A DNA stretch of 64,000 nt from Prorocentrum cordatum (Eukaryota; Sar; Dinophyceae; Prorocentrales; Prorocentraceae), in assembly GCA_963575745.1 (NCBI GenBank), contig CAUYUJ010015029.1, positions 62,001 through 126,000 on the forward strand, given 5' to 3'. The notes under the pieces were generated by a model. That model was given only the letters and a program-made list of their open reading frames with translations, was not told the origin of the DNA and made no database searches. Shown here piece by piece: positions 7,739 through 56,240 of the stretch (the first letter of the stretch is position 1; the number at the start of each line of letters is the position of its first letter). Position numbers and translations under genes: made by a program.

Positions 7739-9715
7739 CGCCACGGTGCCTTGGGCCTCCCGCGCTACGAGCTTGAGAAGATCCGTGCACAAGCTGCCAC
7801 TTGTTCTGACTATTGGAGCCCAGGTGCGTCCACGACTAGTGTCTTGCACGTTTTGGAGGAGGAGGAGGAGGAGGAGGAGGAGGAGAGAGGAGGAGGGGGG
7901 GAGGAGGAGGAGGAGGAGGAGGAGGAGTTCAACGACTACAGGGACGATCCTGTGTTTCGTCTCAGGGTGGTGCAACTCACTACCCTTGCTGAAGTGTGGC
8001 AGGCACTGCCCCCCCAGGCATCCGGGCAGGAGTGCGTCGAGCGTGGTCTCGCCTCGGCGATGGTTTCGCCTGGAAGTCTGCTGCCGAGCGGTGGAAACTC
8101 GTTCGTGGCCCGACTGCGGCTGTTTACGTCGCCCTTCTGGATCTGGAGTGGGTCCCTCGTGCCGCTGATGTGTGGGAAGTTCCTGGACAACCTCATTTCA
8201 GCTTATCCGATCCCGATTGTCGGTATCATCTCGTTCGGTGTGTGCAGGTGTGGAGTGTGGGGCGAAAACTGCTGTACATGCGTGTGCTCAAGGCCTTGAG
8301 CACGGAGCTGAGTGCAGTATATTTCGCCGTCTCCATCGCAGTCTCCTGCGAGATGGTGATTTCCAACGTGCAGCGATGCTCGTAAACATTGTTGTTGGAT
8401 CGTGCTGGCCAAAGGGTCGTCTCCAGGATTCAGGATACGCATCTAACGGGGAGTGCCTAAGATGCGCCGACCAGAAGGAAGATACGAAACACCATTGTTG
8501 GAATTACCCGTGTAATGATCACATGCAGAACGCAGCTGTCGTGACTACTACCTTATTCCACAAGCTGATGCTGCCGCCCACGACTCAGCCTACTGGCCCC
8601 ATGGATTACCCTCGTTGGCTAGCACCGTGGGCTTTGTGCCTGCCCCTGGCTCCTACGTGTGGTCCTGGGGACCCTTTGGGCCTCAGCAGGTTATCGAGGG
8701 TGGAGCCTGGGGACTGGATGGCTCTTGAGGCAAGCCTGCTCAAGATGATCGCTTGAGAAGGCGTGGACGGTTCGCGGTGCGTCTTGGGAAACCCCGTGCA
8801 GGCCAACCTCGTCTCAGTGCTGCATGGTGTGGTAGCCTCCCCACTGCCGGGCAATCTAGTCCGAGGGCAGAACTGCTCGCCCCCCTGGACCCGATGAACC
8901 GCAGTATTGGATGTCTTGAATGCTATACCGACTGCCTGCCTCTACGCCGTGCCATGTCTAAGTCGCGAGCTCACATGTCCCGGCACTCGCCCATGCTCGA
9001 TCTGTGGGCTCGGATCTGGGATGCGATCGATCGGTGAGGTCCTGGCAGGATCACTGTGATGTGGACTGAGTCTCATGCGACTGAAGATGCAGGAACAAAT
9101 CGCCATTGGGTCAGATGAATTGTTTCTGAATTGGTGTGCAGATTTCTTTGCAGGATGGGCTGCTGAATCGAAGGCAGTCCCTCCCCAGATTGTCCAGCAG
9201 GTCGTAGACCGTGATGTCCTTACCCACTCTGTCCTGTGTAGACTGCTGGCCACCAACATGGAGGTGGCCACCCAGTGCACGCGCCTGGCGGCTCATCGTG
9301 TCGGCCGAGCTGCACCCAGGCCCTGTTCTCTCTTTTCTCTCGGCACCAGGCAGGCCCGCCTTAGAGAGGCGGGGCACTCCTGTGCCAAGCGTGGTGAGAA
9401 TTTGATATGTCAGGTTGTAATCGAAAATTGCTGTTGCGAGGTTCCTTGCGAAGGTTCCTCCCTGGTCCGTGCTCTCGCCCAGAAGTGTGGACCCTTGGGG
9501 CCCCATCTGGACCACCCTCTGTTTCCCAGGGCTCACGGCTCACATCAGTTAGCCGTGATGCGAGCTGTGCCCATTGTGAGGGCTATGGTGCATTCAATTC
9601 TGTGAACCTGAGCAGGCAATGTCCGACCCACCTCTCTAAGATTGGGGAGGATGTGCTCCGTCATTTGTAGAGGGGTTTGTCGCCCAAGAGCGGTGTCCCA
9701 TTCCCTGATGTGTGA
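7739..9715 (+). pseudogene. 5'-truncated, frameshifted LINE ORF2 related to the intact element
   Basis: The plus strand encodes, across three frames, the back 40 percent of the ORF2 found intact at 14746-19422, starting at its residue ~911. Matching landmarks, in order: YWSPGA (7811), YRDDP (7939), LLDLEWVP (8138), FRRLHRSLL (8323), ECLRCADQKEDTKHHC zinc knuckle (8453), SPRAELLA (8857) and YTDCLPLRRAM (8922) of RNase H, MLDLWARIWD (8994), LNWCADFFAG (9127) and the final RGLSPKSG ... stop TGA at 9713-9715. Intact ORF2 ends RGLPPKSG. Frameshifts lie near 8000, 8200, 8750 and 9050-9080. The RT catalytic part is absent. A GAG tract interrupts it at 7853-7927. This is a dead copy on the opposite strand to the intact element. 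Confidence 0.85.
7853..7927 (+). repeat. GAG microsatellite inside LINE coding sequence
   Basis: About 24 triplets, mostly GAG with a short GGG-rich centre. It encodes a Glu/Gly run inserted between TTSVLHV and FNDYRDDP, where intact ORF2 has TTALAVRRQYRDDP. The reading frame is preserved on both sides. Confidence 0.85.
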
Positions 9716-12889: not shown

Positions 12890-13330
12890 ATCATCCCGCA
12901 GCCCCCCGCCAGACCGCCCGCCCAGGCCAGCGGCGGGCGGCTGGACACCGCGCGCGAAAGCGCGGGGCAGAATTGTGCGCACGAGACGCGCGACTCGCAA
13001 GGCGAGGGCGGGGGGGCCCGCCCCCCCACCCACCCGGGCCAGCGGCGGGCGCATGGTGACTGCAAGCCAAGCCGCGCGGCGAACTAGCGAGGACGGCGCG
13101 CGCGGGACAGGGCGTGGCGCCAAATGGAAATGGGTCGAAACGTAAACGGTAAAACGCGGCGACGCCACGCGTCGCGCCTGGGCCAAACGGACGAACTGGA
13201 GGCTCGCGCCTGGATATGGCGGACTTCGCGAGACGACGGCGGCGGGGCCCCCCGCCCAGCCACCCGCTCGGGCCAGCGGCGGGCGCGCCGAGACACGCCC
13301 TGATCGCACCGCCCCCGCTGCTCCCTTCAG
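12890..13330. repeat. GC-rich repeat with GGGCCAGCGGCGGGCG core
   Basis: The core GGCCAGCGGCGGGCG occurs at about 12926, 13038 and 13268, each time preceded by a C-rich run such as CCCGCCCCCCCACCCACC. Spacing is irregular (about 110 and 230 bp). The long frames on both strands are explained by composition. Confidence 0.5.
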
Positions 13331-13379
13331 GACAGATTGAATTTCCTTGCGCGTCGCGCGCCCCCCCCTGCTGCGTCGT

Positions 13380-13660
13380 AGGATGGAGGCCCCAGGAGGC
13401 GCTAGGAGGTACCCGGAGGTACCGCGAGACACCAGGAACACCCAGGAAACACCACAAGGCCACAGGCTCCAGAAGGCTCTAGGAAGTCGCAGGAGGTCCC
13501 AGGAGGCCCTCAGAAGCACCATAAAGCACCAAGAGGCCGCAGGAAACCCCAGGAGGTCCCAGGAGCCAGCATGAAGCCACAGGAGGCACTGGGAGGCCCC
13601 AGGAAGCCCCAGAAAGCCCGAGGAGGCCTCAAGAGGCCCCAGGAAATTTTAGGATGCCCC
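13380..13660. repeat. GGAGGCCCCAGGAAGC minisatellite
   Basis: Imperfect 15-18 bp units of the type AGGAGGTCCCAGGA or AGGAGGCCCCAGGAAGC run through the whole interval. It resembles the GGCCCCAAGA blocks in composition but has a distinct unit. Confidence 0.7.
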
Positions 13661-13975
13661 AAAAAACCCAGCAGGCAGGCCCTGGCCGCAGTGGCCTGGT
13701 GCGCTGCCGGCGTCAGTTGGGCAGCCTGTCGGTGGCTCTGGTGGTGTCCTCTGGATCTGCGTGGTCGCCACGGGATGCTGGCGAGTGTCCGAAGGGGCCC
13801 GCCGGAGGAGGCGCGCGCGGGTCCATGCCTGCGACCACCCAGGAACGTCGCCAGAAAACCACATCCAAAAACTTGTCGGTATTTTGTAGTTCCCAAGACA
13901 ATATGTAAAACATCGGATGGCTATTGGATGAGAGAACTGATTGGATATGTAGAAAAAACTGCGGCGGCCTCCAGG

Positions 13976-14105
13976 GGAAAGTTTTTGGATGAAGCCCGCC
14001 CCCCCAGAGGAATTTTTTGCATGCACGCCGGGGGCTCCCTGGGGAAGCTTTCGGATGAAAGCCGGGGCGCCCCCATGGGCAGTTTTTGGATGCCCCCCGT
14101 CGCGT
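13976..14105. repeat. About 34 bp tandem repeat, four copies
   Basis: Copies start near 13976, 14010, 14042 and 14078. Each has GGAAGTTTTTGGATGAA or a variant followed by a G/C-rich second half. Copies are clearly related but diverged. Confidence 0.65.
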
Positions 14106-14135
14106 GCGAAGGTGGGCGTGGGCTACAGTGTTCCT

Positions 14136-14345
14136 TGTCCTCCTGGGTATCCTTCTCCTCCCCCTTCGTTATCCTCCCTCGTCGTCCTCCCTCGTCCTAA
14201 TGTTCATTCCCCTCGTTCTGCTCCCTCGTCCTCCTCCCTCCTCGTCCTCCGTCCTCCTAGTGTTCCTCCATCGTTGTCCTCCTCCTTCCTCGTCCTCCTC
14301 AGCCTCCGCCTCCTCCCTCGTCGGGATCCCCCTCCTCGTCGTCCT
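14136..14345 (+). repeat. Imperfect TCC/TCG pyrimidine-rich tract
   Basis: A long C/T-rich stretch of interrupted TCC and TCG triplets. It creates low-complexity Ser/Pro/Leu frames. No LINE end was recognised at either edge. Confidence 0.6.
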
Positions 14346-14666
14346 CATTCGTCGTCTTCGCCCTTTTTCGCCCTTTCCCCCCTCTTCCTTGCTCGGGACC
14401 CTCTCGAGACACCCCTCCAGTGCCCCCTGCGGCACGTCGGGTGGGCCTCCTACTCCTCGGCCCCCTCCTCAGTTGCCTGCAAGGGCGTGCTGCCGCAGGC
14501 GCGGCCACGCACGTTGCGCACGCAAGCGCGCACGCCCTCCCCTCGACGGCCGACCATCCTGAACGCACCGCGTATCCGCGCCAGCCCGCGCAAGCGATCC
14601 CGAAGTGAACTACCGCGCTCAGGGGGGCGCGGCGGCGACCAGCACATCAGCAAGCCGTGAGCAGGT

Positions 14667-14690
14667 GGAGGAGGAGGAGGAGGAGGAGGA
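14667..14690 (-). repeat. TCC tail of the intact LINE
   Basis: Eight TCC triplets on the element's coding strand (GGA on plus), beginning 55 nt after the ORF2 stop. The tract corresponds in position to the TCC tract behind the truncated copy at 9768. Confidence 0.8.
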
Positions 14691-14745
14691 CCTTTGACCT
14701 TGCTCTGGTGGGCCTTCCCTGATGGACAGGGACCCTCGGTCAACA

Positions 14746-17700
14746 TCACCCTCTCGCAGGGAACTGCATCCCGCTCTTCGGCGGCAGCCCTCTGGAGAGC
14801 CTTGACAAAACGCTCAGCCCCGCTTTCGTGGGAGGCCGAGGCGGCGTGAGAGTGGGGGGGCATTGCCCAGCGAGGAGCTGAGCAGTGTCGACACAATACC
14901 TCCCGCACACCGTGCAATACAACACTCCTCTGAGAACGCACAGATGATGAGAAGAGTGGGCCTTGGGGAAAGCTGGATGGCGAGGCGCAGCGGCTGGGCC
15001 ATCTCGCATTGGGGGTGGACCAACACACCGGCCAGGGCGAAAATCACAAAGCCTGCCGCGGAAGGCGGCAAATTTACGATGGCAAACCTGACACCGAAAC
15101 AGACCTTTAGCCTTCACGGGCGCGTGGCCAGCGGCGAGGAGCCGCTGCCGACGAGTCACGTCAGTGGGCAGTGCCCGAGGGCGGGGAGGCTGCCTACCGA
15201 CGCGATCGGCCTTATTCTGGGGGCAGGTGATGCTGACCTCCCGATTGACATCGAGCAGTCTATGCAAGACTAGGGAGGTCAGCAAATCGATATCAGAAAC
15301 CAGCTTGACATAGTCGGGGTGAACCTCCCCTTTGGCAGCGGCCACACCAGCGAAATAGTCTGCACACGAATTCAGAAAGAGCTCGGCCTCGGAGAGGCCC
15401 CATGCCTCGCTCAGCGAGGCGGTCACATGGGATTTAGTCCAGAGCATCTCGACATGGCCTGATCGACGATCAAGACGATCCCAGATGAGGCACCACAGAT
15501 CGAGCATCGGCGACGACTTAGCTATGGACGACCTCGGGCGCCTCATCGCCCGCGCCAGTGGGAGGTAATCCGAATGCACCAAGATGTCGCCCGTGGAGTG
15601 CGCGAGCAACATATAGAAGGCGTACAGCTCCGATCGAGGACTGCTCTGCTCGAGGGTGGGGAGGGTCCCGCACAACACCCCGTCGAACTGGAAGTTGCCA
15701 GCAACACTCTGGGAATCTAAACGAACCATCGCCCACCCACATCGACGAAGCCTCCAATCCTTAGCCCACTTGCCTCCAGAGCCATCCAAGCCCCAGGTAC
15801 CTCCAGAGACGACGACGCCTTGCTCCAGAACGCCCCACCCGAAGGTCTGGGAGGTCGGCGGAGGAATCTGATGCACGGCGGCAGCCAACGTAGGTAAACC
15901 CCTCGTCCAGAAAGCACTATCATGACTGGCAGCATTGAGGGCCTCGGGGCAGAGGTGCTCGGACTGGTGGAGGGCATTCGAGTCGATGGAGGAGTTACAC
16001 GTACACTGCCATACTCGATGCATCATCGTCTCCTGCGCCACTCCACAGCGCTGGCAAACGCCATTGGACAGATAGCCTGCCTGTCGAAGCCGTGCCTCGG
16101 GCCAGCAACCACCTATGACGATGCACCACAACAAGGCGGCATCCTGGTGGGCCCCATCCTGGACCAGCTGGGCATGCATGCGACGGAAGACTGTGAAATC
16201 AACCCCTGCTTCCAAACCGGCACCACAATAATGATTTGCGGCAGCTCCCCAGACCCCCTGAGCCACGGCCTCCTTCACACACGCGTCGAGGTAGAAAAGG
16301 ACATCGGGGGATGTCGTATCAAGCACCATAGTGTGTGTAGCCCATCGGGTGGGCGAGTCAGGGGCCCAACCAAGGTCGAGCAAAGTACAAATCACAGCAC
16401 CAATTGGGCCCTTGACAGTCCGCCATCGCCGTTTTGCAGAGAGGGCGAGCAGCTTGCCCTTCAACTTATCCCAAGTACGGTCAACTCCTTTACGCATACC
16501 GGGGGAGAGGCCATGCCAAACACTAACCAGCGCCTGCAGTTGCTCTCGCCTAAGCCTGTATGCCGGGTCATCTCGATACTGACGTCGGACAGCCAACGCA
16601 GTAGTAGTGCAAGCTCCCGGGGACCAGTAGCCTGAACATTTTGCAGCGGAGGCCCGAAAGGCCTGGACCTCAGAAGGTGGTAAACCTATGACGCTGTGGC
16701 TCCACGTGCCCACGCTGAGGACTCCAGGTTTGAACAGCTTCCGAGATCGGCCACACAAGCGGGCCAGGAATTGCAGTTTACGACCCCGCCTGAAAGCAAT
16801 CCTCCGCCTCAACCTCACCTTGGCACTGCACCTCCTCCTCCCCGTCGTGGTCATCACCGCAAGATCCTTGACGGCCTCCAAAACCTTCACGGGGACCCCC
16901 AGCTTCTGGAATTCAGACAGAGCAGCTTTCGCCAAGGACGTAGAGGAGGCCACCACTGAGCTCTTAGGGAAGACCTTGCAACCTATGGACGTGACGTCCT
17001 GGAAGAAGGAGAGCACGGCCTGCGGGGCCACCATCAGGATGTACTTACTCGTGCCGTGCGCATATTGCGTTATGTCGTCTACATACGACTGCACAGGGAC
17101 ATGCGGTATACGAGTGTGTGCGCGCTCCAAGACATCGTGCAACAACGCCTTGACCCAGGGCATCGACTGTGTGCAACCAGCCAAGATAGAGTTGCCCGTG
17201 GGCAAGATCTGCGAGAGGGCACCCTCGACCTCGAGCACGCGCGGGCTCGTGTGAACGAGGAGGCCAAGGTACAACAAACAGGGTGGGTACTCAACCTTCA
17301 GCGCAAGCTGGATGAGCAACGCCACGACGACACTATCAAAGAACTTCTCCATGTCCCAGTGCGCGGCCAGGGACTCGAAGCCTACGGATCCTGCCACCTC
17401 ATGCGACAACGCACGCAAGAGGGCACTCTGGAGGGCTGAGGAACCTCTAATAGCAGAGTCCCAGAAGTCCGTATGCTGCTGAGTCCACTCGTCAATCATC
17501 GACCCCCACATGCGACAATACACACGGTACATAGTAGCGCATTTAGATACAGCACGTTCATCATTCGCGCTCTTGGAAAGCATCGCCATGATATTGAGGA
17601 GGCATTGGGTGGGGAACATGAGCTCGTGTTCCACACGGTTAAAGATCTGCACGACCCCGTCGAGCGAATTGCCAGGCAAAGTTAACCACTCACGAGGGGG

Positions 17701-19422
17701 CCATTGATCCACGCCGAGCGCCGTGGGACTCGAAAAACAATGGCAAGCCTGGACCAGGTCACGCACCTGAAACTCAGACGACTCCATGGCAGCGAGCTGA
17801 GCGGATGCACGAAGCTCCCCAGGGGACGCATTGAGGAGGCCACGATGTTGTTCACTGGGGTTCCACCAACCTCCCCAAAACCTCTCGCGATGCTTCATCA
17901 TATCGTCGTGCGTCTGTGAAATCCCATCGAAGCCCTTGAAGTATTCAACCGCCACCCGATCATCCGCCTTAAGCCATCTGTGTAACTTAGGGGCCCCACT
18001 GGGAAGACAGGCTTTCAACCATTCACGAATCCCAGAATCGTTGGCGGAACGAACTTTGGTCCAAGCAGATCTGCAAACGTCGGTAGCCTGATCGATGAGG
18101 GCCTTGACCTCGCCAGGCGTCGTGGGCGGAAAAGACGACACTTTAGCCCGCCAGTGCGCCTGCTGAACCCCGCGCAGCGGCTGCAGATGCTGCAGCGGTT
18201 GGTCGGCAAGGCCGGCGAGAAGAGACCAAAGCTGAGAGGCGCGGCGACATCTCGAACCAGCTTTGCAAAGACATTTCCAATAATCGTAGAGACGGGTGTG
18301 GACCAGGGACCAGAAGCACAGGTCAGGGCAAGAGAAACTCTGCTTGTAACGCCCATGCCGGCGAAACGATCCAGAAAACCCCTGCAGCCCCAACCCCCGT
18401 TCCAGAACGCGATCGGGTTCGACAGCCGCGCACGCCCGAGAAATGCGCACATGCTCGGCAGACCTGGGCCAGAGAGCGCACGCCCCAGACAGATCACTAG
18501 ATAGGTGTTCACGCGCATGCTCCAAGAAGGCATCAGCAACATCCTCGGGAACGGACGGGTCCAAATCATCCTGCAAAGCCATGTTGACATAATGCAACCA
18601 AACGTGATCAGGCCCAACAGCGGGTGGGAAAGCAACGCACTTCAGACGACGCTCAACCACGAGACGGAGGACATCAGAATCAACAGTGGCAGATATACAC
18701 GCGTGCGTCTTGAAGGGGGCGTCCAAGAGAGCCTGAACCCGAACCGCCTGGGCCAGATCCTGGGAGCAGACGAGGTAATCAATCATAGTCTCGCCCGTGT
18801 TACATGTGAACTCTACGTTATCAGGGACCACGGGAACAGAACGGGCAAGCTGAAACCATCCAGAACTAGCAACCTGGTCAGGGGAATTGTTGAAATCGCC
18901 CAAGAGCAGCCAGGGAACAGACAACGACATGGTGAACTGGCAAATCTCCTTCATCCTATCGAGGCATTCGCCAACCATCCCGATAGAAGCAACCAGGTTA
19001 CAAACTCCAATTCCCAAGGAGAACCCATTGAGCTTCACCTCCAAGAAAAGCCAACAGGCGCCAGAGCCCACTTGGACCACCACAGGAACCTGGGTGAGGA
19101 ACCTCTGGAACGCCAGGCCCTTCTGGGTCAACACTGCAACACCTCCGTGCGTACCACCTCCAGGGGAATCAATCGCATGCTGGAAGTAGGGGGGCCATCC
19201 CATAGCACGGGCTTCTTTCTTAGCTTGCTGAACGTTGCCCCGCCGGACGCGGTGTTCAGCCATGAGGAAAGCATCAACCTTAGAGACCTGAGCTGCCGCG
19301 AAGCCCTTAGTTAACGCAGACCAGGAGGTGACGTTGCAAAAGAGAAGAGACAGCTCTTGCCCGCGAGAGCGCGCTCGACGGCGCTCGGCGGGCGCCGCGG
19401 GAAGCAAAATCTGGCGGGGCAT
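14746..19422 (-). CDS. LINE ORF2: endonuclease / reverse transcriptase / RNase H
   Basis: 1558 residues from the ATG at 19422, the first Met after the ORF1 stop. An alternative in-frame Met at 19506 would overlap ORF1. The order is typical of RNase H-bearing LINEs. Exonuclease-endonuclease-phosphatase domain, residues ~26-240: FCNVTSW, MAEHRV (Glu56), HGGVAVL, LLLGDFNNSP (Asp176, Asn178), TMIDYL (Asp215), ending KTH240 where most relatives have SDH. Reverse transcriptase ~560-830: LGVDQWPPREW, SANDERAVSK, WDMEKFFD (Asp690), PTGNSILAG, and the catalytic SYVDDITQY at 779-787. Zinc knuckle CQRC...H...C at 1123-1140. RNase H ~1205-1360: GLDGSGG (Asp1213), SELYA (Glu1265), HSDYLPL (Asp1285), SCADYF (Asp1355). 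C-terminal Cys/His clusters (CQVCHRKF, YCTVCGRYC) may bind nucleic acid. Predicted role is target-primed reverse transcription of its own RNA. Confidence 0.9.
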   Translation of the reverse strand: MPRQILLPAAPAERRRARSRGQELSLLFCNVTSWSALTKGFAAAQVSKVDAFLMAEHRVRRGNVQQAKKEARAMGWPPYFQHAIDSPGGGTHGGVAVLTQKGLAFQRFLTQVPVVVQVGSGACWLFLEVKLNGFSLGIGVCNLVASIGMVGECLDRMKEICQFTMSLSVPWLLLGDFNNSPDQVASSGWFQLARSVPVVPDNVEFTCNTGETMIDYLVCSQDLAQAVRVQALLDAPFKTHACISATVDSDVLRLVVERRLKCVAFPPAVGPDHVWLHYVNMALQDDLDPSVPEDVADAFLEHAREHLSSDLSGACALWPRSAEHVRISRACAAVEPDRVLERGLGLQGFSGSFRRHGRYKQSFSCPDLCFWSLVHTRLYDYWKCLCKAGSRCRRASQLWSLLAGLADQPLQHLQPLRGVQQAHWRAKVSSFPPTTPGEVKALIDQATDVCRSAWTKVRSANDSGIREWLKACLPSGAPKLHRWLKADDRVAVEYFKGFDGISQTHDDMMKHRERFWGGWWNPSEQHRGLLNASPGELRASAQLAAMESSEFQVRDLVQACHCFSSPTALGVDQWPPREWLTLPGNSLDGVVQIFNRVEHELMFPTQCLLNIMAMLSKSANDERAVSKCATMYRVYCRMWGSMIDEWTQQHTDFWDSAIRGSSALQSALLRALSHEVAGSVGFESLAAHWDMEKFFDSVVVALLIQLALKVEYPPCLLYLGLLVHTSPRVLEVEGALSQILPTGNSILAGCTQSMPWVKALLHDVLERAHTRIPHVPVQSYVDDITQYAHGTSKYILMVAPQAVLSFFQDVTSIGCKVFPKSSVVASSTSLAKAALSEFQKLGVPVKVLEAVKDLAVMTTTGRRRCSAKVRLRRRIAFRRGRKLQFLARLCGRSRKLFKPGVLSVGTWSHSVIGLPPSEVQAFRASAAKCSGYWSPGACTTTALAVRRQYRDDPAYRLRREQLQALVSVWHGLSPGMRKGVDRTWDKLKGKLLALSAKRRWRTVKGPIGAVICTLLDLGWAPDSPTRWATHTMVLDTTSPDVLFYLDACVKEAVAQGVWGAAANHYCGAGLEAGVDFTVFRRMHAQLVQDGAHQDAALLWCIVIGGCWPEARLRQAGYLSNGVCQRCGVAQETMMHRVWQCTCNSSIDSNALHQSEHLCPEALNAASHDSAFWTRGLPTLAAAVHQIPPPTSQTFGWGVLEQGVVVSGGTWGLDGSGGKWAKDWRLRRCGWAMVRLDSQSVAGNFQFDGVLCGTLPTLEQSSPRSELYAFYMLLAHSTGDILVHSDYLPLARAMRRPRSSIAKSSPMLDLWCLIWDRLDRRSGHVEMLWTKSHVTASLSEAWGLSEAELFLNSCADYFAGVAAAKGEVHPDYVKLVSDIDLLTSLVLHRLLDVNREVSITCPQNKADRVGRQPPRPRALPTDVTRRQRLLAAGHAPVKAKGLFRCQVCHRKFAAFRGRLCDFRPGRCVGPPPMRDGPAAAPRHPAFPKAHSSHHLCVLRGVLYCTVCGRYCVDTAQLLAGQCPPTLTPPRPPTKAGLSVLSRLSRGLPPKSGMQFPARG

Positions 19423-19456
19423 TCTGGCACAGTCCGTAACTGCTGCCACGCCAGGG

Positions 19457-20827
19457 TTAAAAACGCTGCGGGCCTCCAGCCTCGGCAGCCGCGGGAACTG
19501 CATTAAGCTGGGCGGCCGCTGCCTGACAGAAAGATGTAAAGTAGTTGTTGGTATGATGAGCCACCGCGCGGCGGGCGCGCTTGGCAGCGCGGGCATCAGC
19601 GGCGCGCTGGACCAGCACACCGTACTTCTCCGACTCCTCGGGGTTAAGACCACGGTCAGCAGCGCGCTTGCGAAGATCACGAAGCTCAGCGAGATCAGGA
19701 TCGTCGCCCGCGTTAGACGCCGCTTCCGACGCCGCATCGTCCATGGGGAGGTCGGGGGAGTGCTGCTGCTTAGCCATGTTCCACATGGCCCTCCACTGTT
19801 CGGCTCCGATGGCCGACCTGCCCTCGAAGCGGACGAGGTCCGCTTCCTCCAGGGTGTGCAAGTTCTGCTCGACCCAGGCGAAGTCCACGAAGCCAGCCGG
19901 CGTGATGCCCGGGAGGATGGGCCCGCCAGGCGCCGCGCCGCCGCCCCCAGGCGGGCCGGCGGCGGCTGCGCCAGGCGCCACGCCGCCACCCCCAGGCGGG
20001 CCGCCAGGACCCTGAGGCGGCGGGCCACCTCCAGGCGGGGCCCCAGGCCCAGGAGGAGCAGCACGAGCAAGAGCCGCCAGGCGGGCAGCCTCGGCCTGGG
20101 CCGCCGCAGCCTCTCGGGCCAGGCGCTCCTCCGCGGTGCGGACCTCCTGCATGTACTGCTCAGCATTGAACAAGTTCTTCTGGGCGATGGCCTCGCGCAG
20201 CTCGGCTGCCATCTCCTCCCAGTACTGCTTGGCCTCGGCGTGATCCAACTCCGCCTTGGCAAGGTTATCCTTGTGCTTGACCGCGGTGGACAAGCGCTGT
20301 TCGACGGACACCTGTGCGATCCGCTCAGCGCGAGCCGCCGCCTCCACGGCCTTGGAAAGCTCCGTGAGCTTCGCCGAGGCACGCTTGTCAAGCTCCGACT
20401 GAAAAGCGGGCTCGGGCGGCTCTGGAGGCGCAACAGGCCGGGGGCCACCCTCTTCAGCCTTGCGCTTGGCCGCCTCGAGCTCCTGGGCCATCGTGGGGAA
20501 CTTCGTCGCCAACATCGCGAGGTGTGCGGCAAGGTCGGCAGGGTCGGCAGGGGCAGTGTTCCCCTGGTCGCCGACGCCCATCGCTGCCTCGCCACCGCCA
20601 CCGTCGCCGACGTAGCAGCCACCGCAGCGACTGCAGCACCAGTTCTTGTGGTAGTCGAAGTCCCAATGGCCACAGGTCCCGCAGACGCTGTAGGCGAGGC
20701 GTGCGGCATCACGAGCGCGGCGACGACCACCACCGCCATCGCCACCACCGCCATTGCCGCCGCCTTTCTTCCCATTGCGACGCCACCCGTTGGCCTGCTT
20801 GACCCACGGGTTGTACTCCCAAACCAT
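19457..20827 (-). CDS. LINE ORF1: zinc-ribbon and coiled-coil nucleic-acid-binding protein
   Basis: 456 residues. The start at 20827 is the first ATG of a long frame, about 157 nt downstream of the spliced leader, and the stop lies 34 nt before the ORF2 ATG. A basic Gly/Arg-rich N-terminus (residues 1-45) precedes a Cys cluster CGTCGHWDFDYHKNWCCSRC at 49-68 (plus Cys71), which looks like a zinc ribbon. Residues ~98-245 are a charged Ala/Glu/Lys-rich coiled coil (ELEAAKRKAEE, LREAIAQKNLFNAEQYMQEV). A Pro/Gly linker spans ~250-305. The last 150 residues are helical and end in a basic stretch (RAAKRARRAVAHH). LINE ORF1 proteins typically bind their RNA and form particles; that role is inferred from position and architecture, as no known domain is certain. 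Confidence 0.75.
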   Translation of the reverse strand: MVWEYNPWVKQANGWRRNGKKGGGNGGGGDGGGGRRRARDAARLAYSVCGTCGHWDFDYHKNWCCSRCGGCYVGDGGGGEAAMGVGDQGNTAPADPADLAAHLAMLATKFPTMAQELEAAKRKAEEGGPRPVAPPEPPEPAFQSELDKRASAKLTELSKAVEAAARAERIAQVSVEQRLSTAVKHKDNLAKAELDHAEAKQYWEEMAAELREAIAQKNLFNAEQYMQEVRTAEERLAREAAAAQAEAARLAALARAAPPGPGAPPGGGPPPQGPGGPPGGGGVAPGAAAAGPPGGGGAAPGGPILPGITPAGFVDFAWVEQNLHTLEEADLVRFEGRSAIGAEQWRAMWNMAKQQHSPDLPMDDAASEAASNAGDDPDLAELRDLRKRAADRGLNPEESEKYGVLVQRAADARAAKRARRAVAHHTNNYFTSFCQAAAAQLNAVPAAAEAGGPQRF

Positions 20828-20984
20828 GGTTGACTCAAGACACCGCTCCGGCAGGAGCGCAAAAAATCAACTCTGGGCCACGGGCCAGCGCACAGCCTAG
20901 CCGTGGTTGCAAGAGGTTGGAAGCAAGCCGCGGACTAGCGGTATCCAGTCAGCCTGGAGGCAGTCAGCCTCCCAGGAAAGCAGT

Positions 20985-21005
20985 CTTGAGCCAAAATGGC
21001 TACGG
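20985..21005 (-). other. Dinoflagellate spliced leader (DinoSL) at the LINE 5' end
   Basis: On the minus strand the 21 nt read CCGTAGCCATTTTGG then CTCAAG, identical to the conserved DinoSL after its variable first base. In dinoflagellates this leader is added to nuclear mRNAs by trans-splicing. Its presence in genomic DNA directly before a LINE marks retroposition of a processed transcript. TCC repeat abuts it on the 5' side. Confidence 0.95.
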
Positions 21006-21217
21006 GGAGGAGGAGGAGGAGGAGGAGGAGGAGGAGGAGGAGGAAGAGGAGGAGGAGGGGGAGGAGGAGAAGGATGGGGAGGAAGAGGAGAAGGAGGAGA
21101 GGAGGAGGAGGAGGGGAGGAGGAGTAGGAGGAGGATGAGGAGGAGGCGGATGAGGAGGAGGAGGAGGGGGAGGAGGAGGAGGAGGAGGAGGAGGAGGGAG
21201 GAGGAGGAGGAGGAGGG
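21006..21217 (-). repeat. TCC microsatellite at the 5' edge of the intact LINE
   Basis: About 210 bp of GGA/GAG triplets on the plus strand (TCC on the element's strand), with AAG and GGG interruptions. It directly touches the first base of the spliced leader. Long Glu/Gly/Arg or Pro/Leu/Ser frames arise from it. Confidence 0.85.
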
Positions 21218-22423
21218 CGAGCAGGCACACAACCAAACGCAGGGATTAGGCCAGGAAGCCATGCCCAGGGAAGTTGATTGAAGGAAGGGCGCCTGTGAGC
21301 CAATCGTGAAGCGCGAAGGCGAAGAGCGGCGAAACGATCCTTGGAGGGCCCTGAGCAGAGAGGAGGATGGAGCAGGAGGGGGACACAGGAGGGTGGAAGG
21401 AACGCAGCCAAACAGACAAAAAGGAAAGGAAATGGGGTTTCGCGGCCAAGGGGGGGGCGAAGCAAATAGAGGTGACGGGGGATGAATCTACCAGGAGACG
21501 GGGAACCGAAGGGGGGATAAGGGATGTGATAGGCATTGAAGGAACGCTGAACAAAAACGTGGATCGAAAAGACAAGGAGAGAAACACATTTAAACGACTT
21601 AAGCGAATCTGCGGGCCTCGTCCGACCCCGCCCTCGCTCCCATGGCAGGAGACTTGGCTTCGGCGGACCCCGGGCGGGTCGGTCCAAAAATTCTTCTTCT
21701 CACCGCGGCACTCCGCCTGGAGCAATGCTGGACGCTAGGTCGGGCCCCGCCACGCGCGAGGAATGCGCCGCGATCTGCTCCTGCCGCGCAAACCGCAAAA
21801 CCGGAAGATAGCATCTCCAAGAAGTTCCAACGCGATAGCTTAATGCTGGTGGCGCCAAGCTTCAATGCGACACTTCTGGCACTTAGAAAACCGTCGCATT
21901 GGTAAAGCGAGCCTGGCACGACATGTGGGTTTGGGACATTGCACAATCTGGTTCCGCAAGTTTCAAGAGCTCCCAAAGAGAAAGTATAGGAATCCAGAAT
22001 GGGCGATATGACTCACTGCTCTTGGTCAGAGGTGAAGAGCAACAGGGCAGTTAATGTGCACGGTGCGGCTGCTGATGTTCGGGGAAATGGCTCTCGCGCT
22101 TGGCGTCGGGGGCGAAGAATGCAACTCCACCCGTAATATCCGAGCTTGCTGTCGGAAACGGAACGGTGCGCCTTGGTGGGGGTGCTGATTAAAAAAGGTT
22201 TGCAAATAACTGAAAGTCGGCGGCGTTGCCGTGGGTCTCCTGGGTCGCGCTCGCCGCGAGCTGCCTCGCGCGCGGGGTAAGGATGGCCCATTCGACAGCC
22301 AGCCTGGCAGCCCATCGCCCGAGAAATGCTTGGGAGCTCCATGATGCGATGTTGAAGAACTTCTCTGGACGGGCGCAAGAATTATGGGGGCCATCGCGTG
22401 CTAAAGCCACTGCTACGCAGACG
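21218..22423. other. No gene recognised
   Basis: Mixed sequence with several frames on both strands (for example minus 21246-21725 and 22013-22394). None shows a recognisable domain. A purine-rich segment extends to about 21600. Confidence 0.4.
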
Positions 22424-23474
22424 TTAGATCTTCGAAGGTTGCCGCCACATGTCTCCAGGCAGGAGCAGCAGCGCCAGGCCAAGTGACCGCAGCCAGGTCT
22501 GTTGCGGACTCGCCAGTGGTCGCTTTGACGATGGGTTGCCGTTGAGCGAGAGTTCGCCCGAGGATGTGTGAACATGTGGGTTGGGAAGCGGGAACTTGCC
22601 AGCGATGGGTCCCCTGGGTTGTTTGAATTGAGAGTCTTGGCGAGGCATGTTTGGGAACGTGATTGCGGATGCGTAGAAAGAAATAGATCCTTCTGCTGTG
22701 CTAATTGCGACGGATCTCGATTCTTGTCCGATTCGAAGGGCCTTGCGTAGACTAGCAGCGCGAGGACGAGGGAACACATCACCGACATTGGATGTACAAA
22801 CAAATCCTCTGGCAAGGACATTGGGCTTGGGCGCGATGGAAAAATCCACGCTGGCACTGGCGAGCCACTCCGTGAAGGAGGCCTTGAGGGCGTTAGCATT
22901 AAACCCGGCGCTCGCTCCACACTCAAAGGTACCGTAGCGAGTGTCTCTGTTCCAGTCGCCGAGGGAATCGATATTGACAAAGGCGCGCATGGCTTCGGCA
23001 ACTGCCAATGCACGACTGGTGGCAACGACGAAACCGGCAATGTCCTTCTTGCGTAACACGGCGTTGTCAGGACGTCGTTAAATATAGGCAGTGTCTCAAT
23101 CACTTTCTGGTCTGCCCACGAGTTCGGCGGTCGTCTTGGCGATCGAGGCGAACAAAGCCTGTTTGGGCGCAAACCGTGGCTTGTTTAGCGGTCATTTCGT
23201 CGATTGCAACAGCAGCAGCGTCCACTTGTCCTTCCAAAAGATCTTGTACTTCTTTCCGAAGACGAGCTCGTACCATCGCAGCTGGTTTTGCTGCACCAGC
23301 AGCCCATGGGTCGAAACCGTGAGGACAATAGAACAAAAACACATGAGGTTCAGCCGATTGTAATGGAATGTCATGCGACCCGTGAATGTGAACGCGTGGA
23401 TCTGAACGGCGAGTTCCCGACCGAACCGCGGACCAGCGGTATCCGTGGGAAGGCAACGGGCGGTTTGCCCTCAC
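22424..23474 (-). other. Unrecognised candidate coding remnant
   Basis: Two adjacent minus-strand frames read like genuine protein rather than low complexity. The upstream one (23474-23100) includes ARLRKEVQDLLEGQVDAAAV and IDEMTAKQATVCAQTGFVRL. The downstream one (23059-22424) includes DIAGFVVATSRALAVAEAMR and LKASFTEWLASASVDFSIAP. They could be one broken gene joined by a frameshift or intron near 23060-23100. I do not recognise the family. Retroelement origin is possible given the neighbourhood, but no endonuclease or RT motif was found. Confidence 0.3.
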
Positions 23475-23954
23475 ACAGGAAGTGTTGAGTCACAGCTGCT
23501 GCAGGGGGAGGAAGAGGGGGAGGAGACGGATACAGGTGAGGAGGGTGAGGGTGGGCATGGGGGAAAGAGAAGGACGGCATATGGAGAAGGAAGGTCGAGG
23601 GAGGCGATGGGGAGGCACAGGGAGGGGTGCAGAAGAGGGGTGGACAAGGAGAGGGACAGGTATGGAAACGGAGAGGGACAACGACGTCGTCGCCGAGGAG
23701 GACCAGGAGCAGAGCAGCGAGGGGAAGCCGAGGAGGAACCCGAAGCCGTGGAAAACGCCAAGGCAGTCGGCGCCTCATCCTCCTGCTTCTGGTCCCGATG
23801 GGCCGTCTGCTTGCTCGCCTGGCTTCCGCGCGCCGGGCGGTTTGGGGGGGGGGGGGGGACGGGATGAGAGGGGAGGGGGGGGGGGAGGCGGGAGAGTTCA
23901 CGCCGCGGGTTGAGGGCCTGGCTTGCCAAAGAGAAGGGGAGGGATATGCCCTCC
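23475..23954. other. Purine-rich non-coding stretch with G runs
   Basis: A/G-rich sequence with long homopolymeric G runs near 23845-23860 and 23875-23885. No gene was recognised. The G runs could form quadruplexes. Confidence 0.5.
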
Positions 23955-24014
23955 TCTTCCTCCCCCTCTCCTCCTCCTCCTCCTCCTCCTCCTCCTCCTC
24001 CTCCTCCTCCTCCT
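23955..24014 (+). repeat. TCC microsatellite
   Basis: Uninterrupted CTC/TCC triplets for most of about 60 bp. It lies 170 bp upstream of a spliced-leader relic and dead LINE on the same strand, separated by a purine-rich spacer. Confidence 0.8.
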
Positions 24015-24183
24015 AAGACGCGGAGGGCGGATGGGAGAGGGTAAGGGGACGAGAAAGGCAATGAGAACAAGCAAGAGGGGAAGGAGGAGGAGACTGAGGG
24101 GAACGGGGAGGAGAGAAGGGAGGACAAGGAAGGAACTGAGCTCGGACGTCACCCCATACCTGCACTAAGACAAGGACGTCGCC

Positions 24184-24207
24184 CCGTAGCCATTTTTTGG
24201 TCTCAAG
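24184..24207 (+). other. Diverged spliced-leader (DinoSL) relic
   Basis: Reads CCGTAGCCATTTTTTGG, then T, then CTCAAG. Compared with DinoSL it has two extra Ts in the T run and one T before CTCAAG; all other positions match. GGGCTCAAAAG follows at once and may be the 3' end of a second, older relic. The dead LINE coding region begins about 95 nt downstream. Confidence 0.8.
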
Positions 24208-24299
24208 GGGCTCAAAAGGACCCACAAGCCTCAGAAAGTGCCCACAACTTTCTGGACCATTCTTACCTTTCCGTTCCAACACCTCTGCTCCCACAACGC

Positions 24300-26169
24300 C
24301 ACCATGGCTACCCCGAAAAAGCCCGCGACCTCGACTGTGCTTGTGCATCGAACACCACACGGGTACGTATCCTCTGCGTCTCTGGTGAAAGAGAAGCTCG
24401 AGAAGGTCCAGCGCTTGAAGGCGGCATTGGATCCTAAGACACCAGGATCTGTGTCTCAGGAAACCCCTGCGCAGTCTGCAAACTTGACCACAAATTCGTG
24501 CCGAGTTGCAGAATACGGACTGGACATAGTTATTCGCATCCTGCTTTACGTTAGCCGCTGCAGGCCTCATCGTGGATAGGGCGAAGAAATCCACCCCGAC
24601 TCTCACCGCAGTCGCCCAGAGATCCACCCACGCATGAATTAACGCAGCGTGCGTGGAGCCGATCAGGAGAAATTGAAACACCTGGGACCTCGCTTGTCAA
24701 TTGTCGACAGGACAAACGTTGCCGCCGTCATTACGACAAGTACATTCAGCGCATGCTGGACATGCGCACCTCGGGCCAAAAAATGGTGCATATTACGTGG
24801 TTCGTTGCTTCTCCGTGCTGGCAAAGGGGTCAATCGGAAATCCTCCGACGCAGTCAACGAGAATCGTGGGCTTTGTCTGCTCGTGCAAAGCCGATTTGCT
24901 AGCACATACTTACTGTGAGGGACTTGTGCTCCCGCCTGAGGTCGACAACACGTACTTTTCCGCACATCTGCCAAACGCGTCCCCAATGACCACCTGTATG
25001 CCCGTACGGTGCCATTCAACGTTGCGTATCTTAGACAGGCTGCAGGAAGACAACGGCACTGACCCGATGAACTACCATGCCGGACTCTGGGGAAATAGGC
25101 TTCGCAGTTGGCGATTTCGACTGCCTGCTTGAACGCGTGCTGTTGCATTGTGGCCAGCGGCCTGAATGGTGGATGTTACATTGCTTGTTCCCTTTCTTCA
25201 AAGAGAAGATGCGCTCCAATCCTTCATATTACCGTGGAAAACATCTCACATCCCAACTCAACGAAGTAGTCGAATATTGCTTCGCTAGCGTGCTGCTCCC
25301 GTTCTTCGAGTTCAGTAAGACAAATGGAGGCCACCAATTCGCTTATCACACGAATTGGGGCTACAGAGACGCTTTGACCCACATGTTGTTTTGCTGGATC
25401 CGCGCAATCTGCAGTGGCTGGCGCGTTGGGGTGTTCTGCTCGGACCGTGCTGGAGGTTTTGACAGGGTCAACTCCGACCTTCTCGTGGGCCAAATCGTGC
25501 GCGGCTGGGGTTTGCGAGCCTTTTTTGAAGGTTATCGGGTCGCGGTTTTCGGGAAGACAGGCGAATGTCAACGTAGATGGAAATCTCTCGGAATCTTTTT
25601 TGCTCTTTGACATGGTGGTCCAGGGCACCGTTACGGGACCGCCGTTCCAGAACGTATTCGATGGTAATGCCGAAATTGCTGTGCCCTCGGCCAGCTTCAC
25701 AAAGTGCGTTTCCGCTGACGAACTCAGCTGTTGTAAAAAAAAGAATGCTGCGCGCATCCATTGCCAGACTACGCTTCGCGATTGGGGCGCAGCCAACCAG
25801 GTGGCTTTTGAGGCGGCCAAGGAGAGCGTGCACATTCTGGACAACGGCGGGCCGCAGGAAAACATTTCAAGATCCTCAAAGTTCTTTTCGATCCCAAATT
25901 GGTCATGTACCGTGCCGTTCGGGAACTCGTTCGCGAAGCATCTTGGCGGTTTCGCGCGCTGCCCAAATCAAGCAAGTTCTACAGCAAAGCCGAACTCTTC
26001 AGACTGTGCCATGTTGTCTCTTTCGTCGGCGGCGCTACCTCAGCAAAATTCTACGCAACTCGTGCAGCACGAACTCCGTCAGACGGCCTGCAGGCAACGT
26101 TTTTGTAGTCGGTTGAATTTCCCGAAGACCAGGCCTTGCGGCGCCTGGCGTGATGTCGACCTCGCATGA
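24300..26169 (+). pseudogene. Decayed LINE with reverse transcriptase, second lineage
   Basis: Coding sequence is spread over three frames. About 24700-24960 reads like the linker before RT (HYDKYIQRMLDMR, KADLLAHTYCEGLVLPPEVD). At 25077-25600 come RT boxes YYRGKHLTSQL, FAYHTNWGYRDALTH and CSDRAGGFDRV, with the first catalytic Asp at about 25443. A frameshift near 25540 leads to QGTVTGPPFQNVF (25621) and CVSADELSC (25711), where the usual FADDLN box has lost its second Asp. The thumb and C-terminal pieces (WGAANQVAFEAAKESVHIL, KFYSKAELFRL) follow to 26169. At least three frameshifts or stops and a mutated catalytic site make it dead. A start at 24304 (MATPKKPATST) is plausible for an upstream protein. 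Confidence 0.8.
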
Positions 26170-26288
26170 GCATGTAATGGCGCGTGGGGTTCGATCGGCA
26201 AGGTGGCGCTCGTCGACGATATGGTCTTATTGGTGATGTCTTCAGATCTGCAGACGGTGGTGAATTGCATGGGTCACGTACTGGAAAT

Positions 26289-26372
26289 CAGAGTGAGGGG
26301 GCCGAACGGTCATTCATTGTCCCTGGGCGCGTGGCTGAATAGGGACTTCGTGGTGAGAATTCTGCTTGTTGC
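26289..26372 (+). repeat. Direct repeat flanking the composite block, left copy
   Basis: Shares GAGTGAGGGGGCCGAACGGTC, split by small indels, then TCCCTGGGnGCGTG and GAATAGGGA with TCGTGGTGAGAATT, with 27809-27890, about 1.5 kb away in the same direction. Confidence 0.75.
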
Positions 26373-26394
26373 GTTGTTGAGTTCTCACTTCTGA

Positions 26395-27317
26395 AGAATA
26401 ATTATTGGTGATGCCCCCCACCGGTGCATATTGTTTTTTCTCCATCAAAGTGTGCCCCTCGACGCTCGCAGGGTTACAACAACAACGGCTCCCGCCTAAG
26501 ACTTCCTTACAGTTTAGCCAGGACCCCCGCTCCCGCCCGAGACTTCCTCGCATTTTATGCAGGCATCGCGCTCTCGCTTTGGACTTCCTTACAATTTATT
26601 CAGGAATCGCTCTCCCGGCGCTCTGGAGTCGCGCTCTCGCTGAAGACTTGCTTGCAACTTACTGAAGAATGGCCTTGCGTTGGAATTTCATGCAATTTGC
26701 CCAAGCGCCGCGCTCCCGACACCCAGGCACCCAGGAGTCGCGCCCGTTGTGGCCCCATGTGCGTGCCCTTCGTGGCCCAGCTGTCGCCATTTGTGTCCTC
26801 CTCATTGTCCTACGTGGCCCATTTGCTACCCTCAGTGGCCCCATAGTTGCCTTGTGTGGCCCCGCATTATCTGCATTTCGTGGCCCCCGCTCGTTCGCGC
26901 TCTTCGTGGCCCCATACGCATTCCCTTCGTGTCCCCGCTGTCGCCCTTCGTGGCCTACTCCGTGCCCTTCGTGGCCCTGCTGTCGTTCTCTCTCGCTCTC
27001 GCTTTCGCTCGTCGTCGCCGTCGTCGTCGTCGTCGCGTCGTCGTCGCCGTCGTCGACGTCGTCGTCGTCGTCGTCGGTCGGTCCCCTGTCCGTCCCTCTT
27101 GGGGTCGGGTCGACGGTCCGCGGCCGCCCCGCCGATCAGCGCTGCCGCTGGCCAGGCCGACGGTCCGCGGCCGCCCCGCCTCTTGCCGGGGCCCGGCCAG
27201 CAGGGAAGAAAGGTATACCCCCCAAAAGGGGTTCGATCGAAGACGAAGAGGGCGGGTATCGAGGGTTTGGGAAAGACGCGTTATTAGACACTCGAGCATA
27301 TAAGGGCGAACGGTCTT
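26395..27317 (-). repeat. Composite repeat unit, inverted copy
   Basis: Read on the minus strand this is the unit tandemly repeated at 44.2-46.9 kb. It begins at 27317 with a diverged GACTGTTCGC block (plus-strand GGGCGAACGGTCTT), has CCTCGATACCCGCCCTC and the CCCCAAAAGGGG hairpin at 27220-27231, then a variable spacer. Next come about four approximately 40 bp GAGAGCGCGAT repeats (26500-26700). It ends with GTTGTTGTAACCCTGCGAGC and AATAATTATTCTTCAGAAG at 26395. The spacer here holds GTGGCCCC-rich DNA (26740-26960) and a GTC tract (27005-27080). Confidence 0.75.
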
Positions 27318-27780
27318 GAAAATAATTGTTGTTGTTGTTGTTAGGGTTGTTGTTGTTTGTTGTCGTCGTCCCGCCCGCGACCCACCCCGCGACCCACCCC
27401 GCGACCCAACCCGCAACCCACCCAGCGACCGACCCAGCGACCCACCCCGCGACCCACCCCGCGACCCACCCGCGACCCAGCCCGCGACCCATCCGCGACC
27501 TCCCCGCGGCCCACCACGCGACCCACCCCGCGACCCACCCCGCGACCCACCAAGAAAAACCACCCGGACCCGACAACTGACGTTTACCAAACAGCCCTGG
27601 GCGTTTACTAAACAGCCCTGCCCTGTTCGATTCATTCCTTGTGTACGTTTACTGAACGGCTTCGCTTGCCGGGATGATTATTATGGGGTGGATTTCTGCC
27701 CTCTACACCCGCGACCCAACAGCGACCCACCCGCGACCCATTTGCGACCCACCCGCGACCTACCCACATTGGTTTAACGA
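27318..27780 (-). repeat. TTG tract plus CCCGCGACCCA minisatellite and conserved tail, copy 1
   Basis: TTG triplets (27325-27362) are followed by about fifteen 11-12 bp units of CCCGCGACCCAC (27370-27555). A conserved tail follows (CCCGGACCCGACAACTGACG, TTTACTAAACAG twice, CTACACCCGCGACCCAACAG, CCTACCCACATTG). The tail is about 90 percent identical by eye to 30536-30768. Frames through it give low-complexity ATHPATHP peptides, not genes. Confidence 0.85.
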
Positions 27781-27808
27781 AAAATCGGCGCCTGCGCCGG
27801 GCTCGTTG

Positions 27809-27890
27809 TCAGAGTGAGGGGGCCGAACGGTCATTGTCCCTGGGTGCGTGACTGAATAGGGAGCTCGTGGTGAGAATTATGCTTGCGTTG
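27809..27890 (+). repeat. Direct repeat flanking the composite block, right copy
   Basis: Near-identical partner of 26289-26372. It is followed by TTG triplets (27892-27976). Confidence 0.75.
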
Positions 27891-27976
27891 CTGTTGTTGC
27901 TGTTGTTGTTGTTATAGTTATTGTTATTGTTGTTGTTGTTGTTGTTGTTGTCGTTGTTGTTGTTGTTGGTGTTGTT

Positions 27977-28395
27977 GAATATTATTACTTCTAAAGAATA
28001 ATTATTGTTGGGCCCCCTGGTGCACGCCCCCCTCGCCGCGCCTAGGCCGCAGCCACATTTTCATCATTTTCGTTAGGAAGTCTCAGGCAAAACGGGGGAG
28101 TCCGGATCCGGTTGTTTTGTTGACGCCCGCTTTCCCTTTCAAAAAACAGTATAAAATGACATGTCTTGTTCTAACATAACCAAACTTCAAGAATCCTTTG
28201 CAAAAAATGGCACGAAGTGCACACTCGCGCGCGCAAGATGAAATCCTTCCAAAACCTTAGTGTTCGCAGCGATTTTAACATAAAAACATCAAAAAACAAA
28301 TGGTTTTTCAACCAACAAATTGTCAAAATCTCATCCCGCGCGCTCTTGCGGATTCGTAGGAAACCCAACACTTTTTAAACATTTCTGTCAAACGG
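27977..28395. repeat. AT-rich dispersed repeat, copy 1
   Basis: Contains TCTAAAGAATAATTATTGTTG, split by single differences between copies, then CCTAGGCCGCAGC, TCCGGATCCGGTTGTTTTGT, ACATAAAAACATCAAAAA and AATGGTTTTTCAAC. The same order is seen at 29075-29480. It is distinctly AT-richer than its neighbours. No coding frame. Confidence 0.75.
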
Positions 28396-28678
28396 GTTTT
28401 TGCGAGCAACTTTTTCGAACTTCTGCGACAACGGTTGCGCACCTGCCAGGGCCATCATCCCTGTCAAATAATACCATGCGGGACACATTCGTTTTTTCTT
28501 CGCGCGCGCACGCCGAAATCTCCAAAAACCATTGGGCTTCTTAAGAATTCTAGCACCGCGCATCATAAAATCACAACCATCGGGACAACCATCGAGACAA
28601 CCATCGGGACAACCATATCCTCTCTCTCTTGTGTATTCCCACATCCCTCAGGAATTTGCCCTAAAGATGTGATCAACT

Positions 28679-56030: not shown

Positions 56031-56045
56031 CTTGAGCCAAAATGG
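56031..56045 (-). other. Truncated spliced leader (DinoSL) at a LINE 5' end
   Basis: Minus strand reads CCATTTTGGCTCAAG, the last 15 nt of DinoSL, lacking the first CCGTAG. The break falls exactly after AG, which is where DinoSL relics begin when a leader-bearing gene is trans-spliced again. A TCC tract touches it on the 5' side, and dead LINE coding sequence follows. Confidence 0.85.
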
Positions 56046-56240
56046 AGGAGGGGGAGGAGGAGGAGGAGGAGGAGGAGGAGGAGGAGGAGGAGGAGGAGGA
56101 AGAGGAGGAGAAGGAGGAGGAGGAGGAGGAGGAGGAGGAGGAGGAGGAGGTGGAGCAGGAGGAGGAGGAGGAGCAGCAGCAGGAGGAGCAAGAGGAGGAG
56201 GAGGAGGAATAGGAGGGAGAAGAGGAGGAGAAGGAGGAAC
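56046..56240 (-). repeat. TCC microsatellite at the 5' edge of the third LINE
   Basis: About 190 bp of GGA/GAG triplets on plus (TCC on minus), with a few GCA and AAG interruptions. It adjoins the leader at 56045. The long poly-Pro frame running through it is an artefact. Confidence 0.85.

Follow-up and report, generated by a model that had tools for sequence, protein, structure and literature searches.

We analysed a 64-kb stretch of Prorocentrum cordatum DNA (64,000 nt; hereafter the window), whose GC content was 53-68% in 4-kb steps. A full-length LINE was located at 14690-21005 on the minus strand, between two (CCT)n arrays. Its parts followed one another on that strand in the order spliced leader (SL), 157-nt 5' UTR, ORF1, ORF2 and short 3' UTR. 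Minus strand positions 20985-21005 read CCGTAGCCATTTTGGCTCAAG, which is the 21-nt DinoSL core with 0 mismatches. The preliminary description of this DNA had reported a perfect core directly 5' of a LINE with both ORFs open, and the sequence confirmed it. The features are given below in the 5' to 3' order of the element.

21006..21216, minus strand: 5' flanking (CCT)n microsatellite found with TRF, (GGA)n on the plus strand; counted as target array and not as element, CCT-rich DNA lying also 5' of other copies
20985..21005, minus strand: DinoSL core, the 5' terminus of the LINE; perfect match, at the same place in 30/30 related 5' ends read
20828..20984, minus strand: 5' UTR, 157 nt
20953..20976, minus strand: 5' UTR hairpin 1, CCTGGGAGGCTGACTGCCTCCAGG; a stem with different bases persists in other subfamilies (by eye)
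20927..20946, minus strand: conserved 5' UTR motif GGATACCGCTAGTCCGCGGC, possible hairpin 2 (CCGC..GCGG)
19457..20827, minus strand: ORF1, 456 aa, open
14746..19422, minus strand: ORF2, 1558 aa, open; endonuclease, reverse transcriptase (RT), zf-RVT-like finger and RNase H
18889..18900, minus strand: endonuclease motif GDFN; weak Exo_endo_phos match (E 0.0034), below the Pfam cut-off
17071..17088, minus strand: RT motif C, SYVDDI; a motif reading, with a low-confidence model (pLDDT 48)
15772..15792, minus strand: RNase H motif GLDGSGG
14690..14745, minus strand: 3' UTR, ending in ..GAGCAAGGTCAAAGGT directly before (CCT)n, without long poly(A)
14667..14689, minus strand: (CCT)7CC of the 3' flank, regarded as the remainder of the target array

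ORF1 gave no Pfam match; a Cys-rich finger was recognized by eye in the vicinity of its N-terminus. ORF2 contained the RT motifs WDMEKFFDS and SYVDDI (including YVDD), and its Pfam scores stayed under the cut-offs: Exo_endo_phos reached 17.6 bits against a cut-off of 24.5, and no RVT_1 match was obtained for the window ORF2. Four homologues were found at E ≤ 0.001, the best being P0003 (24% identity over 1499 columns). P0003 scored 26.6 bits for RVT_1, just below the cut-off of 29.6, and 33.8 bits for RNase_H, over the cut-off; the homologues P0004 and P0005 were above the Exo_endo_phos cut-off, and P0006 passed that of RVT_1. The predicted structure of the RT region (pLDDT 48) matched PDB entries including G2L4 RT, human LINE-1 ORF2p and R2. 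Comparison of ORF2 with that of a related copy, L040, gave a dN/dS of 0.114 over 916 codons at a dS of about 1, indicating that the protein has been under selection. An RT, an N-terminal AP-type endonuclease, 5'-truncated copies with the 3' end intact and a target-site duplication characterized the element as a LINE of the AP-endonuclease type. A decayed ORF2 relative with up to 47% amino-acid identity was present elsewhere in the window (7742-9569, plus strand), and a Pfam search of ten other window ORFs returned one sub-threshold DUF5320 match.

The last bases of the 3' UTR, at 14690, were GGTCAAAGGT. Three to five A, then G, were found at the 3' ends of the window copy, L039, L040, L041 and L043; more distant copies had only two A (L052, L054, L062, L064) or one (L063). 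The dinoflagellate polyadenylation site is given as AAAAG/C (PMC2488372). From leader to poly(A) site the element looks like the copy of an mRNA, with GGT or a similar sequence between the A run and (CCT)n.

In many subfamilies the SL was followed by a hairpin with a varying stem, the motif GGATACCGCTAGTCCGCGG and a possible second hairpin. Two pairs of hairpin 2 changed on both sides in the alignment, with a covariation term of only -0.04 kcal/mol. The folding energies of 14 5' UTR sequences gave z values of -2.5 to +0.7, not clearly better than shuffles, and the best fold of the window copy's own 5' UTR paired the conserved motif differently from hairpin 2. Because the covariation was weak and the energies were not clearly beyond shuffles, we treat these hairpins as a lead only. 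In an Rfam search of 13000-28500 at E ≤ 1, none of the 24 matches reached the gathering score and every one lay in low-complexity DNA; no HDV-like ribozyme was detected in the 5' UTR.

Leader sequences at the 5' ends of the family

At up to 3 mismatches, 20985-21005 was the sole DinoSL core match in the window. The P. cordatum assembly (4.128 Gb searched, in 21,875 contigs) held 14,218 exact cores (7201 + 7017). A chance or contaminating 21-mer match beside an unrelated LINE has a negligible probability and is refuted by three results: 100 shuffles produced 0 core matches, the reversed pattern used as a genomic control gave 0 + 0, and the same junction recurred at 30/30 loci read.

The full DinoSL has 22 nt, DCCGUAGCCAUUUUGGCUCAAG, in which D is U, A or G (PMC2606063). 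The base directly before CCG in the window copy was C, so the leader's 22nd base (D) is either absent or indistinguishable from the flanking (CCT)n. At the 55 distinct AGG-flanked SLs among those listed, this base was T in 39, A in 9, G in 6 and C in 1 (hand count), as expected from D being U, A or G. Flank and leader can be told apart at these sites, and there copying seems to have extended to the leader's first base.

We used the first 306 nt of the element as a query and read 30 loci, the window's own included, among 40 scored matches of 300 candidates. All 30 related 5' ends began at an SL-like 21-mer, 25 of them without mismatch, and the mismatches amounted to 6 in 630 SL positions. Mean ungapped pairwise identity was 0.98 in the SL versus 0.58 in the next 60 nt, the latter value being lowered by alignment shifts. 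Since the SL was near-invariant and the neighbouring UTR had diverged, the leader appears to be renewed while the adjacent UTR drifts. In a comparison of 1.5-kb flanks with simple repeats masked, the upstream sides were alike in 3 of 435 pairs and the downstream sides in 118 of 435; with so few upstream similarities, nothing was conserved 5' of the SL. The three upstream-similar pairs (L013/L014 and L024/L025, 100%; L016/L018, 94%) lay on different contigs and represent duplicated regions, uncollapsed alleles or one place found twice, so that the 30 5' ends correspond to about 27 distinct insertions. The preliminary description had expected many copies to have the SL-UTR junction in common, which was borne out in 30/30 related 5' ends read. 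It had also named full-length copies extending past the SL into conserved element sequence as the result that would speak against its view; these were sought and were absent in 30/30 loci.

L065 and L066, with 95-96% identity at the 3' end, lacked an SL. Both began within the element (nt 1983 in L065, nt 6009 in L066) and beside (CCT)n, and they look like 5'-truncated copies. L067, a 76% relative with a match of 226 nt only, was too diverged for its 5' edge to be placed, and no CCT was found there. At the loci L001, L007, L012, L023 and L027 an ATG followed the SL immediately (CTCAAG-ATG); if that ATG is used, the leader would be the entire 5' UTR there.

Further information came from SLs followed by a remnant of an earlier leader. 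L039 (the same as L010; 96% identical over 6.5 kb) carried the SL plus a 15-nt relic, CCATTTTGGCTCAAG, its 5' end reading GCGCAG-CCATTTTGGCTCAAG-CCATTTTGGCTCAAG-ACTGC. This arrangement is as expected if trans-splicing had acted a second time on the transcript of an SL-bearing genomic copy and had used the AG within its leader. The same relic, cut at the AG inside the SL, is known from host genes (PMC3229502). An SL with relic was present at 1202 of the 14,218 genomic cores. Twelve such loci were read: CCT-type sequence preceded 10 (weak in L076, 0.31, and L068, 0.50), AGG preceded L071, neither array preceded L078, and L077 had two relics. With the SL at the 5' limit and relics in re-spliced copies, the family has the features of DinoSL-tagged sequence derived from trans-spliced mRNA.

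The SL might instead be inherited as part of the element, with transcription starting at or just upstream of it and no new trans-splicing in each round. A parallel exists in the PCP gene of A. carterae: its genomic sequence carries an SL (21/22) precisely where the mRNA begins, and the authors left initiation there without trans-splicing possible (PMC2488372); moreover, 29/30 related 5' ends read had no relic. However, relics cut exactly after CCGTAG (the 1202 places, L039/L010 and L061) point to re-splicing, and the SL hardly varies whereas the UTR next to it does. We therefore judged it unlikely that the SL is mere inherited sequence. The claim of the preliminary description that the LINE transcript was trans-spliced before reverse transcription gains support, at the level of sequence, from the SL as 5' limit in 30/30 and from the relative with SL and relic. 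With no relic in 29/30, the terminal CTCAAG would be the acceptor in most rounds, provided that most rounds start from SL-bearing copies, a proviso suggested by the absence of 5' ends other than the SL.

(CCT)n arrays at the insertion sites

Both the full-length and the truncated copies of these LINEs lie in (CCT)n microsatellites, a finding that adds to the preliminary description. In the 60 nt before the SL of the 30 loci, the fraction of CCT-type trinucleotides was 0.45-0.97. All five readable full-length 3' ends (window, L039, L040, L041 and L043) entered (CCT)n, as did L080, the 3' end of the L030 copy; the 3' ends of L042, L044 and L081 were left out owing to N runs. When a 3' flank was called CCT-rich at a CCT-type fraction of at least 0.4 in the next 60 nt, 14 of 20 copies qualified (20 loci of the 48 matches listed), compared with 34 of 3000 random window stretches. 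The 6 others were L048, L052, L053, L054, L056 and L064. (CAT)n was seen beside the LINE 3' end in L053 directly and in L041 after its (CCT)n.

Target-site duplications were found in two copies. In L040 the same 15 nt, TTCCTCCTCCTGTTC, flanked the element on either side without a mismatch. The L030/L080 copy had CCTCCTTCTCG before and CCTCCTTTCTCG after it, with CCTCCTT(T)CTCG in common (11 nt with one indel); this duplication was read by eye, and a scripted comparison gave no match owing to the one-base indel. In mismatched controls, the L040 5' flank gave no alignment with the window 3' flank, and the window 5' flank aligned with the L040 3' flank over 40 nt with 3 mismatches. Because a mismatched control can align, only non-CCT letters are diagnostic of a target duplication, and pure CCT arrays such as those of the window are not. 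Insertion into simple repeats, a feature of microsatellite-targeting LINEs, was observed.

These flanks bear on two other explanations. The LINE could target SL RNA genes in the manner of SLACS/CZAR or NeSL-1, so that the SL would be flanking target sequence; the position of the SL exactly at the junction agrees with this. Yet the five full-length copies with a readable 3' end had (CCT)n on both flanks, the 5'-truncated copies kept (CCT)n and lacked the SL, and both target duplications were CCT-type. Insertion within SL RNA genes is accordingly highly improbable, the repeat being present on both sides. The arrays could also have been made by the element or have expanded later, through tail slippage or a carried 5' or 3' repeat, rather than having been there as a target. 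Arrays lie on both sides of many copies, microsatellites expand easily and the array lengths vary, which makes this a minor possibility worth weighing. Against it, the L040 and L030 duplications have non-CCT letters on both sides, L065 has the variant unit CCTCCCT in the stretches on both its sides, and the array that holds L039 comes after another LINE's 3' end.

The 5' flank of L039 consisted of that other LINE's 3' end and its array, and the 3' end of L061 was followed by (CCT)n and then by another SL with relic. In these neighbourhoods, elements have accumulated head to tail within a single array.

Genome-wide, array counts were taken on the reverse strand, with one row per SL; forward counts, inflated by several starts per SL, were not used. 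CCTCCT occurred at most 12 nt before 2716 of the 7017 reverse-strand cores (38.7%) and AGGAGG before 973 of the 7017 (13.9%). For all window positions, CCTCCT was present within 12 nt in 1.6% or 3.4%, depending on the strand. Among the first 100 cores listed, 43 had CCTCCT and 18 had AGGAGG, and 38 or 39 had neither within 12 nt (hand count; the CCTCCT listing covers 99 of these cores). Given AGG arrays before 13.9% of the SLs, the arrays are oriented preferentially rather than strictly, or differently from one family to another. L003, L071 and other SL copies lay after (AGG)n, which is the array in the opposite orientation; perhaps these belong to LINE families that have the other strand as target.

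Several further traces were noted. A decayed SL with 13/21 bases (by eye) was seen in the window at 23484-23504 on the minus strand, with CCT-rich DNA upstream and the motif GGATACCGCTGGTCCGCGG 39 nt on, at 23444; we regard it as an old SL-LINE 5' end. On the plus strand, 24184-24207 held an SL with three inserted bases, CCGTAGCCATTTTTTGGTCTCAAG, perhaps followed by a second relic and probably another old retrocopy; a tblastn search downstream of it with this ORF2 and its homologues gave no RT match. At 56031-56051 on the minus strand, (CCT)n was joined directly to CCATTTTGGCTCAAG, which is the SL without its first six bases. The first ORFs of three arbitrary SL loci (L002, L003 and L006) resembled LINE ORF1 with Cys fingers (by eye), which suggests that many genomic SLs may mark LINEs. 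Since several arbitrary SL loci resemble LINEs, counts of genomic SLs need not equal counts of retrogenes.

Proposed replication cycle and comparison with known systems

The locus holds a full-length, SL-initiated LINE between (CCT)n arrays, and most likely (probability about 0.8) it arose by reverse transcription of a trans-spliced LINE mRNA at (CCT)n targets. In such a cycle, the RNA would start upstream of the element and read through the array and the genomic SL. The host would then add a new SL at an AG inside the genomic SL, either that of CCGTAG or that of the terminal CTCAAG. Splicing at the inner AG would leave a relic, and splicing at the terminal one would put a fresh leader in place with no mark of the event. 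The ORF2 endonuclease would nick the AGG strand and prime reverse transcription there, possibly through base pairing with the CCU-rich RNA. The (CCT)n lying on the 5' side of each new copy may in turn help as a polypyrimidine tract in the next round of trans-splicing; for A. carterae acceptors, AG and no other simple consensus has been described (PMC2488372). The read-through is the firmest of these steps, because an acceptor at the element's first bases needs an RNA begun upstream. The data are consistent with a LINE that would lack a promoter of its own, as the preliminary description had proposed.

LINEs usually need their own promoter and easily lose their 5' ends. Tentatively, and at somewhat less than even odds, we suggest that dinoflagellate LINEs gave up their own 5' end, the host SL serving as terminus. 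Landing in (CCT)n would provide a polypyrimidine tract before the leader's AG, so that every insertion would come self-equipped and the leader would be renewed each round, and the same LINE machinery would be the engine of thousands of SL-tagged host retrogenes. If this is true, host trans-splicing acts as a universal 5' end, and the microsatellite is the landing site and perhaps the splice context. The SL would be a searchable tag for full-length LINE copies. The LINEs would also offer a candidate, open to testing, for the unnamed enzyme by which dinoflagellate retrogenes arise, in which case (CCT)n junctions like these are to be expected at host retrogenes.

Retrocopies tagged with an SL have been known before, as have LINEs that target microsatellites and LINEs inside SL genes. 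In the parts of the open-access literature available to us, we found no description of a LINE with a host SL as its 5' terminus, or of dinoflagellate SL-LINE/microsatellite junctions. Microsatellites are targeted by Waldo/Mino of the R1 clade and by the R4-type Dong. These resemble the present LINEs in inserting into simple repeats in a preferred orientation; they differ in that the target here is (CCT)n in a dinoflagellate and the 5' end is an SL. SLACS/CZAR of trypanosomes and NeSL-1 of nematodes are SL-gene-specific LINEs. They too lie beside an SL; however, the SL gene is their target, whereas the LINE studied here starts with the SL as its own sequence and has (CCT)n for a target.

L1Tc/ingi are likewise LINEs in a trans-splicing host, and in them a common 5' sequence, Pr77, activates transcription and the transcripts are unspliced (PMC8190864). 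In contrast, the SL end found here would imply a transcription start upstream of the element. SymbioLINE-Dnmt and other Symbiodinium LINEs are also dinoflagellate LINEs with two ORFs, and the available sections of their description make no mention of an SL 5' end or a microsatellite target (PMC5890265). Unlike in SymbioLINE-Dnmt, no Pfam domain was found in ORF1 here, and hence no DNMT.

A DinoSL retrogene of a host protein gene does not describe the present locus, the sequence of which is that of a LINE. Slamovits and Keeling in 2008 reportedly described DinoSL-tagged retrogenes and mRNA recycling. Like the LINEs studied here, DinoSL retrogenes combine a genomic SL and relics derived from trans-spliced mRNA copied into DNA (PMC6050394, PMC12014239). 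A review gives the type of mediator of dinoflagellate retroposition as unknown, its authors favouring Ty1/copia (PMC6050394). The retrogenes are host genes moved by an unnamed enzyme, whereas here the tagged mRNA is that of an enzyme-encoding LINE, which forms a family of many copies.
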